NCBI RefSeq assembly: GCF_025950095.1
Contig: NZ_JAPDDR010000003.1
Coordinates: forward strand, 248,001 to 312,000
Direction of reading: 5' to 3'
DNA length: 64,000 bases
DNA from: Luteolibacter rhizosphaerae
GTDB taxonomy: Bacteria > Verrucomicrobiota > Verrucomicrobiia > Verrucomicrobiales > Akkermansiaceae
Both the position numbers and the translations under genes were made by a program. Shown piece by piece: positions 45,807-54,456 of this stretch. A model generated the notes under the pieces. It was not told where the DNA came from, made no database searches, and saw only the letters and a program-made list of their open reading frames with translations. Every line of letters begins with the position of its first letter. Position 1 is the first letter of the stretch.

Positions 45807-48047
45807 ATGAACCCCCTCGCTCCCATGATCGAAACCCTTTCTCCCGCCAAGCGCGGGTCGCGATTCAACCCCAGACTCCGGACAGATTTGTTCTACCGCT
45901 CAGCGATCGGGGTCCGAGTCTGCGCCTTGCTCGCTGTCGCCATGACCGGATCCAGCTCGGCCTCCATCGGCGAATGGATTTACTTCGGTTCTCAGTACGG
46001 ACCGATCCCGCCGGCCATCGCCGCGCCGGGTCCGAGCAAAATCGCCGCGGGCCTTGGTCACACCGCCATCCTGAGACCGAATGGTGATGTCATCGCCTGG
46101 GGAACAAATCACCTCGGCCAGACCAATGTACCGTTTGCGGCGCGAACTGGCGTGACCGGCCTCGCTTCCGGACTCAATCACACCATTGCTCTCAAGCAGG
46201 ACGGCAGCGTCGTCGCCTGGGGTGACAACTCAAAGGGTCAGACCGACGGACTACCGCAAAGCGGCGTCACCGCCATCGCTGCAGGAGCCAATCACAATCT
46301 GGCACTGATGCAAGACGGCAGCGTCGTCGCTTGGGGTGACCCTGCCGAGGGCAAGATCACGGTGCCGACGGCGGCCCAGAGCAACGTGATCGCGATCGCC
46401 GCGGGACTTAATCACAGCCTCGCCCTCAAGCAGAACGGCAGTGTCGTGGCTTGGGGCACCAATATCTCTTTCGCCTCCTCGGTCCCGGCCGGCGGCGAAA
46501 GCGGAGTGGTGGCCATCGCCGCAGGTGGCGACGGAAGCTTGGCCCTCAAGCAGGACGGCACTGTTCTCGCCTGGGGCTCGCTCTCGAACGCGCCGGGGCC
46601 CGCGCTGAGTGGCGTGACCGCCATCGCCTCGGGGGGCAACGTCGGGGGTGCACACGCCTTGGTCCTCAAGCAGAGCGGCGGAGTCATCGCTTGGGGCTGG
46701 ACCAGTCATAACCAATCCGTCGTGCCTGCTACGGCACTAAGTGGCGTGGTCGCCATCGCCGCAGGGCCCTTCAATAGCATGGCGATCAAGCAGGATGGCA
46801 GTGTGGTAGGCTGGGGATTCAATAGCCACGGTCAAAGTTCCGTTCCGACCACCATCCAAAGCAACATCGTCGCCATCACCTCCGGTCAAGCTCACAGCGT
46901 GGCCCTGAAACAGGATGGCAGCATCGTCGCCTGGGCTTCGAATAACAGCTTCGGGCAGATCACCGTGCCGCCGGAGGCGCAGAGCGGGGCCACCGCCGTT
47001 GCTGCAGGTCAGAACCACAGTCTGGTTCTGAAACAAAACGGCAGCGTCCTCGCCTGGGGCTATAACTCCAATGGCCAGGCCACGGTGCCGCTCGCCGCGC
47101 AGAGCGGTGTCGCCGCCATCGCAGCAGGTGGCAGCCACAGCTTGGCCCTCAAGCAGGACGGCAGCGTCGTGGCTTGGGGCGAGAATACCCACAGCCTGAA
47201 CACGGTGCCGCTCGCCGCCGGGAGTGGCGTCGTCGCCATCGCCCACGGCTTTGGCCATTGCCTGGCTCTCAAGCAGGACGGCAGCGTTGTGGCTTGGGGA
47301 AGCGGCTACTTTGGCGAAGGTCACGTGCCCGCAGCAGCTTTGAGCGGCGTCACTGCCATTGCCGCAGGCGGCTCTCACAACCTGATCCTCAAGCAGAATG
47401 GCTGTGTCGTCGCTTGGGGATACAATGAATTCAGCCAAGCCACGGTGCCGCCCGCAGCGCGGAGCGGTGTCGTTGCCATCGCCGCGGGCCTCAATCACAG
47501 CTTGGCCATCAAACAGGATGGCAGGGTCGTGATCTGGGGGAGCAACACCTACAACCCCTCCGTGATCGTGCCCAAGGAAAGTCTGGCAAGTGCCAGTCGG
47601 GCCGTGGCTGGCGGGAATGCCATGGGGACCTTCTATCGCCTCGGCTTGCCCCAGCCACTACCCTTGGCTGCCCCGGGCGATCAGGATGGTGATGGCCTCA
47701 GCGATGTTGCGGAAGTCCAGTTGGCAGCATTCGGCTTCAACTATGCGGTGAGCCAACCGGATCTGGTCGCCGCCTTCTTGTCCACGGTCACCAACGCCAG
47801 CGCGGACTTGGGGCTTCACACCCCGGCCCAGCTCCAGGCCCTCAATCCCGGCAAGACCCTGATCGGCCGCAGCGCCACCACCGGGAAGTTCGCACTGACC
47901 CTCGATTGGAAGAAGTCCACCGATCTCAGTTCCTTCACCGACTTCCCCGCCGCCCCGGCGGAAGTCTCCGTGGGCGGCTCCGGAAGCATCGACTTCGAGT
48001 TCGAGTCTCCCGAGACAAAGGCCTTCTTCCTGCTCAACGTCGACTGA
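45807..48047 (+). CDS. Secreted double BLIP-II/RCC1-like propeller protein, second copy
   Basis: A 746-residue paralogue of the previous gene, 15 bases downstream, so almost certainly in one message. It has a basic N-terminus, then a hydrophobic stretch (VCALLAVAMTGSSSASIG). Residues about 75-610 again contain fourteen repeats, such as VAAIAAGGSHSLALKQDGSV with an AWG core and TVPLAAQ. DQDGDGLSDVAE resembles a calcium-binding motif and the C-terminal domain (TLIGRSATTGKFALTLDWK, ending FFLLNVD) matches that of the first protein and of other Verrucomicrobia surface proteins. The matching count of fourteen in both copies supports a paired-propeller design. Confidence 0.85.
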   Translation: MNPLAPMIETLSPAKRGSRFNPRLRTDLFYRSAIGVRVCALLAVAMTGSSSASIGEWIYFGSQYGPIPPAIAAPGPSKIAAGLGHTAILRPNGDVIAWGTNHLGQTNVPFAARTGVTGLASGLNHTIALKQDGSVVAWGDNSKGQTDGLPQSGVTAIAAGANHNLALMQDGSVVAWGDPAEGKITVPTAAQSNVIAIAAGLNHSLALKQNGSVVAWGTNISFASSVPAGGESGVVAIAAGGDGSLALKQDGTVLAWGSLSNAPGPALSGVTAIASGGNVGGAHALVLKQSGGVIAWGWTSHNQSVVPATALSGVVAIAAGPFNSMAIKQDGSVVGWGFNSHGQSSVPTTIQSNIVAITSGQAHSVALKQDGSIVAWASNNSFGQITVPPEAQSGATAVAAGQNHSLVLKQNGSVLAWGYNSNGQATVPLAAQSGVAAIAAGGSHSLALKQDGSVVAWGENTHSLNTVPLAAGSGVVAIAHGFGHCLALKQDGSVVAWGSGYFGEGHVPAAALSGVTAIAAGGSHNLILKQNGCVVAWGYNEFSQATVPPAARSGVVAIAAGLNHSLAIKQDGRVVIWGSNTYNPSVIVPKESLASASRAVAGGNAMGTFYRLGLPQPLPLAAPGDQDGDGLSDVAEVQLAAFGFNYAVSQPDLVAAFLSTVTNASADLGLHTPAQLQALNPGKTLIGRSATTGKFALTLDWKKSTDLSSFTDFPAAPAEVSVGGSGSIDFEFESPETKAFFLLNVD
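46029..47646 (+). repeat. Tandem coding repeat, about 120-bp unit, fourteen copies
   Basis: Units of about 114-132 bp, each coding one blade of the second propeller protein. The core AAGCAGGACGGCAGCGTCGT recurs with small silent differences. Confidence 0.8.
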
Positions 48048-50999: not shown

Positions 51000-51515
51000 T
51001 TACCCCTTATCAAGTTCACCCTTGAGGGACAACCGAGCCTTCCTCAACTGCCACAGCATCACTCCTCCTAGCCAGACCGTCGCGTAGCCGGCCACCACCA
51101 GCCAGTAGGGTAGGGAGAGATAGAAGTACCAGTTCTCGTCATCGATCTCCTCGGCATCCCAATCCAAAGCAGCTATCCAGCAGCGATCGGCTGGCTTCAC
51201 CCGGGTCGCATAAGTGTCCCACCTTTTCACCGGCACCCCGCATCGAGTCGTGAAAGTCTCTGCCGGCCAAAGCTTGTTGATGCCGACCCTCCCTCGAACG
51301 TAATCGACCTCCGCCTCATGGAGATGGTCCACACTCAACCAATGCCAGAAGATCTTGCCTTGAGTTGACGAAAGTGAGGACGGAACAAGGAAGACGCGGT
51401 GGTGCCGTTGGTTGGATTCGCACCAAGCCCATACAAGAAACACCAGGCCCGGCAAACCTAGCCAGAAGGCCATGGAGCGCCACCAACTCCTCCCTAACTG
51501 ACTCCCCGGCTTCAT
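51000..51515 (-). CDS. Unknown two-membrane-segment protein, third copy of a tandem family
   Basis: About 171 residues from ATG 51515, which overlaps the stop of the preceding copy (ATGA). The N-terminus MKPGSQLGRSWWRSMAFW leads into a membrane helix (GLPGLVFLVWAW). The middle (about 100 residues) is soluble and rich in Trp and charged residues. A second helix (LPYWLVVAGYATVWLGGVMLW) is followed by a basic tail. The two helices match those of the upstream copy but the middle does not. I recognise no family. Confidence 0.7.
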   Translation of the reverse strand: MKPGSQLGRSWWRSMAFWLGLPGLVFLVWAWCESNQRHHRVFLVPSSLSSTQGKIFWHWLSVDHLHEAEVDYVRGRVGINKLWPAETFTTRCGVPVKRWDTYATRVKPADRCWIAALDWDAEEIDDENWYFYLSLPYWLVVAGYATVWLGGVMLWQLRKARLSLKGELDKG

Positions 51516-51573
51516 GGCATCTCTTGGCGCTGGATCCTTCTCTGCCTCCGACGATACCAAAACCAAAGCCCAG
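51479..51573 (-). repeat. 95-bp direct repeat, downstream copy
   Basis: Identical to 51998-52092 at all but two positions. It spans the stop-start junction and the first residues of one gene plus the last about 20 codons of the preceding one. Confidence 0.85.
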
Positions 51574-52033
51574 TCCAGATCCCCACGTAAGCCGCAGCCA
51601 TCAACCAGTAGGGAAGGGCCAGCAGCGTGAAGGGTGTCGCAGGGTCATCCGAAGTCTGGAAACGCGGCGGTGGGAACCAAGTCCGCTGCACCGGATGAAC
51701 CGAAGACTGGCTGAAATCCCAGACTGAAGGAGGCAGCGCCGGTCCAAAGCTGCATTGTATCCCCGATGTCGGCCAGCGGCCTGCTGGTGGATAGACTAGT
51801 GCCAGCCATGAATCCAATTTCAAGCCTGCGGAAGTTGCGGCGGCTGAGAACTGGACCGTGAGGAGATGTCCATGTGTGGACCAGATGCTCACCCTGCTGG
51901 GAGAGTGCTCCAGAGTGCTCGTTCTATGATTGGAGTCAACCCACGCCCAAATCAGGAAGCTCAATCCAAAACTTGCAAGCCAGGAGCAAGGCGACAGCCA
52001 CCAACTCCTCCCTAACTGACTCCCCGGCTTCAT
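51512..52033 (-). CDS. Unknown two-membrane-segment protein, second copy of a tandem family
   Basis: About 173 residues from ATG 52033; the frame is open to 52315, but that part lies within the previous copy's remnant, and the MKPGSQLGRSWW start matches the downstream copy. There is an N-terminal helix (LASFGLSFLIWAW), a soluble Ser/Pro/Trp-rich middle, then a helix (LALPYWLMAAAYVGIWTGLW) and a basic tail (YRRRQRRIQRQEMP). The stop overlaps the next ATG by four bases. No function can be given. Confidence 0.7.
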   Translation of the reverse strand: MKPGSQLGRSWWLSPCSWLASFGLSFLIWAWVDSNHRTSTLEHSPSRVSIWSTHGHLLTVQFSAAATSAGLKLDSWLALVYPPAGRWPTSGIQCSFGPALPPSVWDFSQSSVHPVQRTWFPPPRFQTSDDPATPFTLLALPYWLMAAAYVGIWTGLWFWYRRRQRRIQRQEMP

Positions 52034-52092
52034 GGCATCTCTTGGCGCTGGATCTTTCTCTGCCTCCGACGATATCAAAACCAAAGCCCAGC
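51998..52092 (-). repeat. 95-bp direct repeat, upstream copy
   Basis: Matches 51479-51573 with two differences. One of them changes TGG to TGA in the reading frame of the upstream copy at 52075-52077. Confidence 0.85.
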
Positions 52093-52499
52093 CCAAAGCC
52101 CCGAGTAAGCAAGCACCACCACCCAGAGTTCCAGCACCCCATGGAAGCCTGTCCTGGCCCGGACCTTGGAACTCATACCGAAGCAGAGGCCATGTTTGCC
52201 GCGAGATCACGCTCATTCCGCGTTCCGCCCCCATCGGGTATCGCTTCGCCCCGAAATAAGTCCCGATGCCATCGCCAAAGGAATAGGGCCCTCCCATACC
52301 AGAACAGAAGTTCACCCTGCGATACTCCTAGCGCCACGCCGCGCATCGCCGGAGCGCTGCCCCAGCGCCATGATACCCCTGAGCTGACCTGAATCGAGTC
52401 AAGCCAAGCCAACGCCAGGCCCGGCACCCCCAGCCAGAAGAGCCTCGACCGCCACCAGCCTCTCTTCCTTCCGCGTATTCCGTGTATCCCGTGGTTCAC
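52030..52499 (-). pseudogene. Decayed first copy of the tandem membrane-protein family
   Basis: It would start at a GTG (52499) overlapping the mnmG stop (GTGA). The first frame gives RGWWRSRLFWLGVPGLALAW, which matches the family's N-terminal helix, but it ends at a stop at 52173-52175. The C-terminal helix, VLELWVVVLAYSGLWAGLWF, is found in another frame, followed by a TGA at 52075-52077 where the next copy has TGG, and then the family tail YRRRQRKIQRQEMP ending in a TGA that overlaps the next gene's ATG. So at least one frameshift and one nonsense change separate it from an intact gene. A 108-residue product from 52499 to 52173 could still be made. Confidence 0.65.
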
Positions 52500-54385
52500 C
52501 CCTCCTCCGCCGGAACCGGCACCTCTGCTCTCTTCCCCTTCTCCAGCCACACCGCCAGCACGGCCACATCCGCAGGGGTGATCCCCGTAATCCGCCCCGC
52601 CTGCCCCAGAGTCGCCGGCTTGATCCGCGCGAAGTTCACCTGAGCCTCCTTCTTCAGGCCACGGATGCTCGAATAATCCAAGTCCGCCGGGATCCGCTTG
52701 TCCTCGTGACGGGCCATGCGCTCCACCTGCACCTGCTGCCGATTCAGGTGACCCTCATACTTCAACTCGGTCTCGATCAGCGGCCAAAGTTCCACGTGGA
52801 ACTCTCTCTGGACCTCTTCGGGCAGCATATCCCAAGTATTCTCGCTGCGCCGGAACCAGTGATCCATCTTCACCCCCTCGTGCGCCGCTTGCCGGGACCA
52901 CTTCAGCGCCCGCTCTAGCTCCGCGCCCTTCTCCACCACCCGGCGCACCCGCTCCCCGCTTGCTAGACCGGCCTCGGCAGCCAATGGCGTGAGCCGCAGG
53001 TCGCAGTTGTCCTGACGCAGCAGCAGCCGGAACTCCGCCCTGGACGTGAACATCCGGTAGGGCTCGATGCAGCCTTTGGTGACCAAATCATCTACCATCA
53101 CGCCCATGTAGGCCTGATCCCGGCGCAGGATGAAGTCCGGCTTCCCGGCCACCTTCAGCGCCGCATTGGCGCCCGCCAGCAGGCCTTGGGCCGCCGCCTC
53201 CTCGTAGCCGGAGGTCCCGTTGATCTGCCCGGCAAAATACAACCCGGACACCCGCTTCGTCTCCAGCGTCGGATTCAGCTGAGTGGGCGGGCAGTAATCA
53301 TACTCTACCGCGTAGCCCGGGCGCAGGATCTCGCACTTCTCCAAGCCCGGGATGGTCCGCAGGAAGGCCAACTGCACCTCGTAGGGCAGCGAGGTCGAAA
53401 CCCCGTTCACGTAGTACTCGTGGGTATGCCGTCCCTCCGGCTCTAGGAAAACCTGATGCCGCTCCTTCTCCGCGAAGCGCACCACCTTGTCCTCGATCGA
53501 GGGGCAATAACGCGGGCCCACGCCCTCGATCACCCCGCAATACATGGGAGATTTGTCGAGGTTCCCCCGGATGATCTCGTGGGTATCCGGATTGGTGTAG
53601 GTCACCCAGCAGGGCATCTGTTCCACGTGGAACGTGGAATCGCCCCACGGATTCAGTGTGAAGAGGTCGTCCTGCCCCCGCACCAGCGTGTCCGCCAAAT
53701 AAGAAAAGAGTGGCGCGGGAGTATCCCCGTCCTGCCGCTCACACGCCGACAGATCCAGCGAGCGCCCGTTCAGACGACAGGGCGTGCCGGTCTTGAAACG
53801 TTCCACGTGGAACCCCAGCTGTTTGAGCGAGTCAGAAACCGTCGAGGTTGCATCTCCCATTCGGCCCCCTTTCTCGTTCTTCAGGCCCACATGCATGAGC
53901 CCGCGCATGAAGGTCCCCGCAGAGAGGACCACCGAGGAGCACTCGATCAGCATCCCCAGCGAGGTCGAGATCCCGGTGACCTGATCGTTCTCCACCAGAA
54001 TCTCCGCGACGTTCCCTTGGTGCAGCTCGATGCCCGGCGTGGACTCCAGCAACCACTTCATCCGGAACTGGTAGGCCTTCTTATCGCACTGGGCCCGGGG
54101 AGCCCGCACCGAGGGACCCTTGGAGGCATTCAGCATCCGGAACTGGATCCCGGTCGCATCCGTGTTTACTCCCATCGCCCCGCCCAGCGCGTCGATCTCG
54201 CGCACCATGTGGCCCTTGGCCAAGCCTCCGATCGCCGGATTGCAGGACATCTGCCCCACGGTATCCAGATTCTGGGTAAGCACCGCCACCTGCGCACCCA
54301 GACGGGCGGCAGCAAGGGCAGCTTCCAAACCGGCATGACCGGCTCCGATGACGAGGACGTCGTAGCGCTTGGGATAGCGGAACAT
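52496..54385 (-). CDS. mnmG: tRNA uridine-5-carboxymethylaminomethyl modification enzyme MnmG (GidA)
   Basis: A 629-residue FAD enzyme, the usual length, that works with MnmE to modify the wobble uridine of certain tRNAs. The FAD loop is [19 protein letters not shown], followed by [31 protein letters not shown] and [21 protein letters not shown]; these are MnmG signatures. The C-terminal helical domain ends near [17 protein letters not shown]. mnmE, rsmG, parA and parB, which often accompany mnmG near the origin, are not adjacent here. Three parS-like palindromes inside the gene each code Phe-His-Val-Glu in frame. Confidence 0.95.
52789..52802. promoter_or_regulatory. parS-like site 1 (within mnmG)
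   Basis: GTTCCACGTGGAAC, a perfect 14-bp palindrome, extended by A and T to 16 bp. It matches the ParB-binding core GTTxCACGTGxAAC. In mnmG it codes FHVE (context EFHVELW). Confidence 0.75.
53620..53633. promoter_or_regulatory. parS-like site 2 (within mnmG)
   Basis: A second exact GTTCCACGTGGAAC, preceded by T as in the 16-bp parS consensus. Codes FHVE in the mnmG frame (context TFHVEQMP). Confidence 0.75.
53800..53813. promoter_or_regulatory. parS-like site 3 (within mnmG)
   Basis: A third exact GTTCCACGTGGAAC, 180 bases from site 2. Codes FHVE in the mnmG frame (context GFHVERFK). Confidence 0.75.
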
Positions 54386-54442
54386 GAGCTAGGGCCGCGG
54401 AGCCTAGACTCTCCCGCCACCCCACACAAGACCTGTCGCCAT

Positions 54443-54456
54443 GTTCCACGTGGAAC
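54443..54456. promoter_or_regulatory. parS-like site 4 (upstream of mnmG)
   Basis: A fourth exact GTTCCACGTGGAAC, 58 bases before the mnmG start. It continues into CTCTCTC as does site 1, so the two share a longer identical stretch of about 20 bases. Confidence 0.75.

Follow-up and report, generated by a model that had tools for sequence, protein, structure and literature searches.

Putative parS sites embedded in an expandable loop of MnmG in ParB-bearing Verrucomicrobiota

The window analysed here, a stretch of 64,000 nucleotides from the draft genome of Luteolibacter rhizosphaerae (contig NZ_JAPDDR010000003.1, positions 248,001 to 312,000), contains the gene mnmG together with four exact copies of the 14-bp palindrome GTTCCACGTGGAAC, all of which lie inside 1.7 kb (Table 1). 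Downstream of mnmG, two or three tandem and partly repeated open reading frames occupy the minus strand at 51000-52550. They share a 149-nt repeat at 85%, of which an extra partial copy is found at 52404-52464; the two frames that were tested gave no match in Pfam. Farther away, the plus strand encodes a 746-residue protein that consists largely of RCC1-type repeats (45807-48047). Scans of the window with Rfam and for tRNAs yielded no matches.

Table 1. Features at the mnmG locus. Positions are those of the window; "loci" refers to the 81 mnmG loci described in the text.
Feature	Position	Strand	Remark
mnmG (gidA), 629 aa, host of three putative parS sites	52496..54385	-	TIGR00136 equivalog, 775 bits; PF01134
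Coding part of a 17-residue insertion (231-247) absent from E. coli MnmG	53645..53695	-	alignment to 3cp2
Putative in-gene parS, MnmG residues 529-532 (FHVE)	52789..52802	none	exact in 16/81 loci
Putative in-gene parS, MnmG residues 252-255 (FHVE)	53620..53633	none	exact in 71/81 loci; the most widely kept
Putative in-gene parS, MnmG residues 192-195 (FHVE)	53800..53813	none	exact in 9/81 loci
Putative parS upstream of mnmG	54443..54456	none	intergenic, with a cytidine deaminase gene on the other side; ends 57 bp short of the mnmG ATG

A sequence-only reading of this DNA had reported these four copies, three of them encoding FHVE in the frame of mnmG, and no other exact copy in the 64 kb. Our scan of the window confirmed the four positions and the in-frame reading at residues 192, 252 and 529. 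Beyond the four copies the whole window held none at up to two mismatches (mean of 0.20 in shuffled windows), while the exact 14-mer occurred on average 0.00 times over 100 shuffles. Scattered copies elsewhere in the genome had been envisaged as a sign against a centromere. In the draft genome (6,233,507 bases in 31 contigs, 98% complete), the 14-mer was found four times, all four within the 1.7 kb, and its reversed control not at all. The looser form GTTNCACGTGNAAC occurred at the same four positions alone. Allowing one mismatch added five sites for this form and eleven for the control, and since the count remained below that of the control, we read the one-mismatch sites elsewhere in this genome as background. 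The palindrome is identical over its 14 bp to the core of parS1 to parS4 of Pseudomonas aeruginosa. In the mnmG loci that were taken, the bases flanking the core also agreed with the 16-mer, the 3′ base being A at 239 and the 5′ base T at 178 of 286 sites, a count in which the window's own genome enters twice. The palindromes are very likely parS sites.

The motif proved to be widespread among relatives. Within the genus, 17 of 18 genomes carried two to five copies, the exception being a genome that is 61% complete. The 180-bp and the 831/834-bp spacings were both present in 11 of these 17 genomes, and the remaining six had fewer sites. At the family level, the motif was present in 113 of 117 sampled genomes. 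For a closer comparison we used 81 mnmG loci, comprising the window and 80 records kept from a contig scan, all from Verrucomicrobia-type organisms and mainly from Akkermansiaceae, Verrucomicrobiaceae and their relatives. An exact in-gene site was present in 74 of the 81 loci, and an upstream site at no more than 260 bp from mnmG in 55. The seven loci lacking an exact in-gene site displayed a one-mismatch (six loci) or two-mismatch form (one locus) at the place of residue 252. The in-gene FHVE positions were thus kept across relatives, a check that the sequence-only reading had proposed. In three loci (L121, L125 and L127), the site at residue 252 was absent and that at residue 192 was kept; these loci carried more exact sites downstream of mnmG, roughly 1.88 and 2.7 kb from its start.

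The genome of the window encodes one strong ParB, a protein of 301 aa on contig C13 (G000:C13), so that the ParB homologue on which the centromere reading depends is present. Its ParB_N, HTH_ParB and ParB_C domains (PF02195, PF17762 and PF23552) each scored above the cut-off, and its closest solved structures were ParB and Spo0J. An identity as Noc, bound to its site NBS, was rejected, as the protein scored 225.8 bits against an NCBIfam cut-off of 315 for Noc; in addition, the NBS motif of Noc differs from the parS-type palindrome. The best ParA-like protein, at a resolution that does not distinguish other ParA/MinD-like proteins, was a 305-aa open frame on contig C5 (G000:C5) with a match to AAA_31 (E 5.4e-57). 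No ParA was recognised by eye among the open reading frames of at least 150 aa in the 11 kb around ParB. ParB, the likely ParA and parS are therefore found on three contigs, with parS on C3, and the parAB operon that usually, though not necessarily, accompanies parS was not found beside it. This bore out the earlier remark that parAB are missing near mnmG. Apart from the strong ParB, contig C2 has two adjoining open frames that match ParB_N less strongly (G000:C2:462085-463224; L006 and L007), and these possibly stem from a mobile element.

We then considered the phylum in a sample of 145 genomes, in which a ParB with an E value below 1e-40 was counted as strong. The motif was present in 86 of 94 genomes with a strong ParB versus 2 of 51 without one (Fisher 1.3e-27, a value that overstates the link, since it reflects only three changes of ParB and three independent pairs). 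Indeed, in a tree computed from 110 MnmG proteins after removal of the loop, ParB changed state three times, the exact in-ORF site eight times and the long loop once, and an independent-pairs test found three pairs only, too few for significance. The co-occurrence of ParB and parS thus amounts to few events, and the case rests on five other lines, namely the exactness of the sites over deep divergence, the constraint on codons, independence of the reading frame, a lineage with a changed motif, and the position relative to the origin.

The mnmG sequence was taken for 110 of the 145 genomes, 85 with and 25 without a strong ParB; five genomes had no mnmG match, and seven motif-bearing genomes are among those left out. 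In the 81 motif-bearing genomes of this set, 109 of 140 motif sites lay in the mnmG ORF. Exact in-ORF sites were found in 74 of the 85 ParB-bearing genomes, and in 64 they fell within one loop segment, defined as the alignment columns flanked by the conserved stretches TGTP and NLDKSPM. Outside the family of the window, 63 of 69 ParB-bearing genomes had a site in this segment. Counted by family, it was present in 30 of 31 ParB-bearing families and in none of ten families whose mnmG-sampled genomes lack a strong ParB, one of which (f25) includes a strong-ParB genome outside the mnmG set (G230) that has no exact motif. The segment measured at least 74 residues in all 85 genomes with a strong ParB and 74 to 143 residues in those with exact sites, its median length being 77 residues with one site, 95 with two and 111 with three. 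Among the 25 genomes without a strong ParB, the length was 62-67 residues in 22 and 76-77 in the other three (two genomes of family f7 and G184). The loop carried one to three copies, their place within it varied among families, and the spacers between them looked unrelated across families when compared by eye. Moreover, the sites in the loop read FHVE in 79 cases, VPRG in nine and STWN in eight. As all three frames are used, it is the DNA rather than the peptide that is kept.

Conceivably, FHVE could be a functional peptide of MnmG, with the palindrome as a by-product of its coding. The residues themselves would allow for this, as F is invariant at residue 252 and H, V and E each reach 96% at the next three residues across the 81 loci, and the peptide is still encoded at DNA sites that carry one mismatch. 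At the codon level, however, synonymous alternatives are nearly absent from residues 252-255, although they are used elsewhere in mnmG. Among 362 alignment columns in which at least 80% of the residues are one amino acid (M and W excluded), the four with the highest codon conservation were precisely residues 252-255 (TTC 81/81, CAC 75/78, GTG 77/78 and GAA 78/78), and the next best columns reached 0.93. The gene-wide shares of the same codons within their amino acid are 0.70, 0.64, 0.44 and 0.47, respectively. The peptide idea is further contradicted by the 17 of 96 loop sites that lie in the other two frames, by the variable place and copy number of the 14-mer in the loop, and by its presence outside the gene, upstream of mnmG. 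Likewise, 24 of the 25 genomes without a strong ParB had no exact mnmG site, and E. coli MnmG has QHPQ at the place of FHVE-252 in the alignment to 3cp2. A peptide-level origin of FHVE was thus rejected on the codon and frame results, and we regard a functional FHVE peptide as extremely improbable.

With respect to the protein, the insertion relative to E. coli MnmG sits shortly before the widely kept FHVE. A structure model of the MnmG of the window, made from 37 sequences, had a mean pLDDT of 76, and a fold search with this model returned MnmG/GidA as its top matches. The pLDDT was below 50 at residues 241-255 and in other stretches; since low values also occur outside 241-255, the model only weakly suggests that the loop around these residues may be flexible.

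Eleven of the 85 ParB-bearing genomes lacked an exact in-ORF site. Four of them had one-mismatch sites in the loop, in each case including GTTCCATGTGGAAC. This last form recurs across families (mnmG of G171, G121, G129, G147 and G183; loci L129 and L146), as though ParB tolerated a C-to-T change in the central CpG. In a fifth genome, G192, the canonical loop site was absent and a segment of 287 residues held six copies of the lengthened motif GTTTCCACGTGGAAAC. Among 387 genomes of the phylum, GTTTCCACGTGGAAAC was found in the three sampled genomes of the same genus and once in a genome of another family. The copy number within the genus is six, two and two, and in each genome the copies sit on a single contig and span no more than about 620 bp; of these three genomes, the mnmG sequence was taken for G192 alone. 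The remaining six genomes, five from genus g2 and G229, had neither an exact nor a one-mismatch site in mnmG. The five g2 genomes carry the motif elsewhere, and the one site inspected in each lay in a short open frame or before a gene, in one case immediately before a gene that appeared, from its translation, to encode an arginyl-tRNA synthetase. G229, in which ParB is present, carries it nowhere. The other ten of the 15 g2 genomes in the phylum sample have a single in-gene site outside the loop, aligned to residue 529, the copy at 52789 in the window.

Overall, no exact motif was found in eight of the 94 genomes with a strong ParB; mnmG had been taken for five of these, G162 and G231 had no mnmG match, and G230 was not in the set. 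Conversely, the motif occurred without a strong ParB in G184, where it lies in the loop, and in G202, which has one copy and whose locus is outside the mnmG set. The missing ParB of G184 is likely due to an assembly gap, because its sister in the tree, G226, has both ParB and the loop site. In the two f7 genomes, which measure 0.9 Mb and have no ParB match, the place of FHVE reads FHVK and FHVR. Here the site has decayed to one mismatch in G148 and is unrecognisable even at two mismatches in G168.

This decay also bears on the idea that the sites are an inherited relic, or a mobile or restriction-related repeat, without any present function. ParB-bearing lineages are related, so that the sites are shared partly by descent. 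Yet the 14-mer stays exact within loop segments that vary in both sequence and length, and it has decayed in the two f7 genomes that have no ParB match. A mobile repeat is, in addition, at odds with the lack of scattered copies in the genome of the window. We therefore give hardly any credence to sites devoid of function.

To place the sites relative to the replication origin, GC skew was sampled in 20 stretches of 20 kb per genome in three single-contig genomes that belong to three families and to other genera than the window. The skew switched at 1.20-1.35 Mb in G040, at 1.26-1.45 Mb in G190 and at 3.51-3.80 Mb in G199, and parS lay at 1.24, 1.37 and 3.86 Mb, that is, at the skew origin in the first two genomes and near it in the third. 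With sampling steps of 0.16, 0.19 and 0.31 Mb, this proximity holds only to that grain. In the same genomes, ParB was found at 2.22, 2.71 and 0.56 Mb, and the best ParA-like protein at 2.30, 2.14 and 0.26 Mb, respectively. Octamers such as GGGCAGGG displayed a strong leading-strand bias of 111 to 13 in these three genomes (L306-L365); presumably they resemble the FtsK-orienting sequences of other bacteria. In G004, a genome of the same genus as the window, a skewed octamer occurred 27 times on the plus and 56 times on the minus strand to the left of parS, and 12 and 5 times to the right, over the part of the contig up to 4.12 Mb. The best break, near 2.4 Mb, had a broad interval of 0.66-3.42 Mb, so that a position of its parS (3.04 Mb) near the origin is only weakly suggested. 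For the contig of the window itself, the cumulative GC skew reaches its maximum at about 270 kb and is declining where parS lies (301 kb), which is the opposite of what an origin would give. Taken alone, this skew speaks against an origin at parS. A rearrangement, or weak skew in this genus, could be the cause; skewed octamers were of no help in placing the origin on this contig. The link between mnmG and the origin drawn in the sequence-only reading thus held for the three genomes of other genera, was weak in the same genus and was not visible on the contig for which it had been proposed.

The position of the sites is also relevant to the view that they are operators at which a transcription factor controls mnmG, instead of being centromere sites. 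The copy shortly before the start codon, with its counterparts in more than half of the loci, could be taken in this sense, and the intergenic sites parS3 and parS4 of P. aeruginosa repress adjacent promoters (PMC5521831, excerpt). The most conserved copy, however, lies about 750 bases into mnmG and away from the promoter, the motif corresponds to the established core of parS, and the few copies that it has per genome coincide with the skew origin or come close to it in three relatives. Operators in place of a centromere are thus very unlikely, while a secondary regulatory effect exerted by ParB is possible.

We consider it highly probable that the four palindromes are parS sites, which together would constitute a chromosomal centromere embedded in mnmG. 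The sequence-only reading had suggested a centromere region at this locus, and the clustering of the sites, the presence of ParB and the kept in-gene positions support this suggestion. In other bacteria, ParB is loaded as a clamp at parS, SMC is recruited and ParA drives segregation. By analogy, ParB would load on the sites at mnmG as a CTP-dependent clamp, spread over mnmG and its neighbours and recruit SMC, and ParA would move the ParB complex, whereby the origin region would be segregated. The site at 53620-53633 lies in an MnmG loop that, in most sampled ParB-bearing Verrucomicrobiota, carries one to three parS in whichever frame fits, and the sequence of the loop would there be set by DNA binding and not by the enzyme. 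We infer that the sites are older than the split of the ParB-bearing lineages. Going further, and with less assurance, we favour the view that the centromere has resided inside a housekeeping enzyme since before the ParB-bearing Verrucomicrobiota diverged, that the length, copy number and residues of the MnmG loop are governed by what ParB requires, whatever the frame and even after a change of the motif, and that the genes for ParA and ParB have wandered off. A location within a conserved gene may hold the centromere next to the origin, and the occupancy by ParB may be coupled to the expression of mnmG.

These sites would tell where the chromosomal centromere lies in a large part of a phylum, for which no description was found in the literature searched. 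Furthermore, the sequence of a conserved enzyme is apparently dictated in part by a DNA-binding site, which raises the question whether centromere function can shape a protein loop. The GTTTCCACGTGGAAAC lineage offers a view on the co-evolution of parS and ParB. Other questions are how ParB loading inside an expressed gene affects the expression of that gene, and how ParABS can operate when its three components lie far apart from one another. In practice, the parS in mnmG may serve as a marker of the origin in draft genomes of this phylum.

A parS in mnmG of Verrucomicrobiota was not described in the literature searched, which comprised excerpts and excludes the 2007 parS survey by Livny, nor was one mentioned in the excerpts of PMC13342612, PMC10197239, PMC4442127, PMC3909081, PMC4368675 and PMC5521831. 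Closest to the phylum is a Hi-C study of 12 OMM12 genomes including that of Akkermansia muciniphila YL44, where parS sites of a degenerate consensus and GC skew were used to place ori, which was not always at dnaA (PMC10197239, excerpt). What appears to be new is the phylum-wide housing of a putative centromere in an expandable loop of a housekeeping enzyme. A chromosomal parS within a coding gene is known from B. subtilis, as parS-359 lies inside parB (PMC4442127, excerpt); in contrast to the mnmG case, the host gene there is parB itself. In P. aeruginosa, parS1 to parS4 share the 14-bp core TGTTCCACGTGGAACA/C and are bound by ParB (PMC4368675, excerpt), and parAB lies about 7 kb from oriC, the closest parS being located in recF (PMC3909081, excerpt). 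The sites of the window resemble that system in having the same core, a cluster of four and some intragenic sites (PMC4368675 and PMC5521831, excerpts). The P. aeruginosa cluster is near the origin. Unlike in P. aeruginosa, the sites of the window lie in and before mnmG, the genes for ParB and the ParA-like protein are elsewhere, and the sites recur across the phylum in one protein loop.
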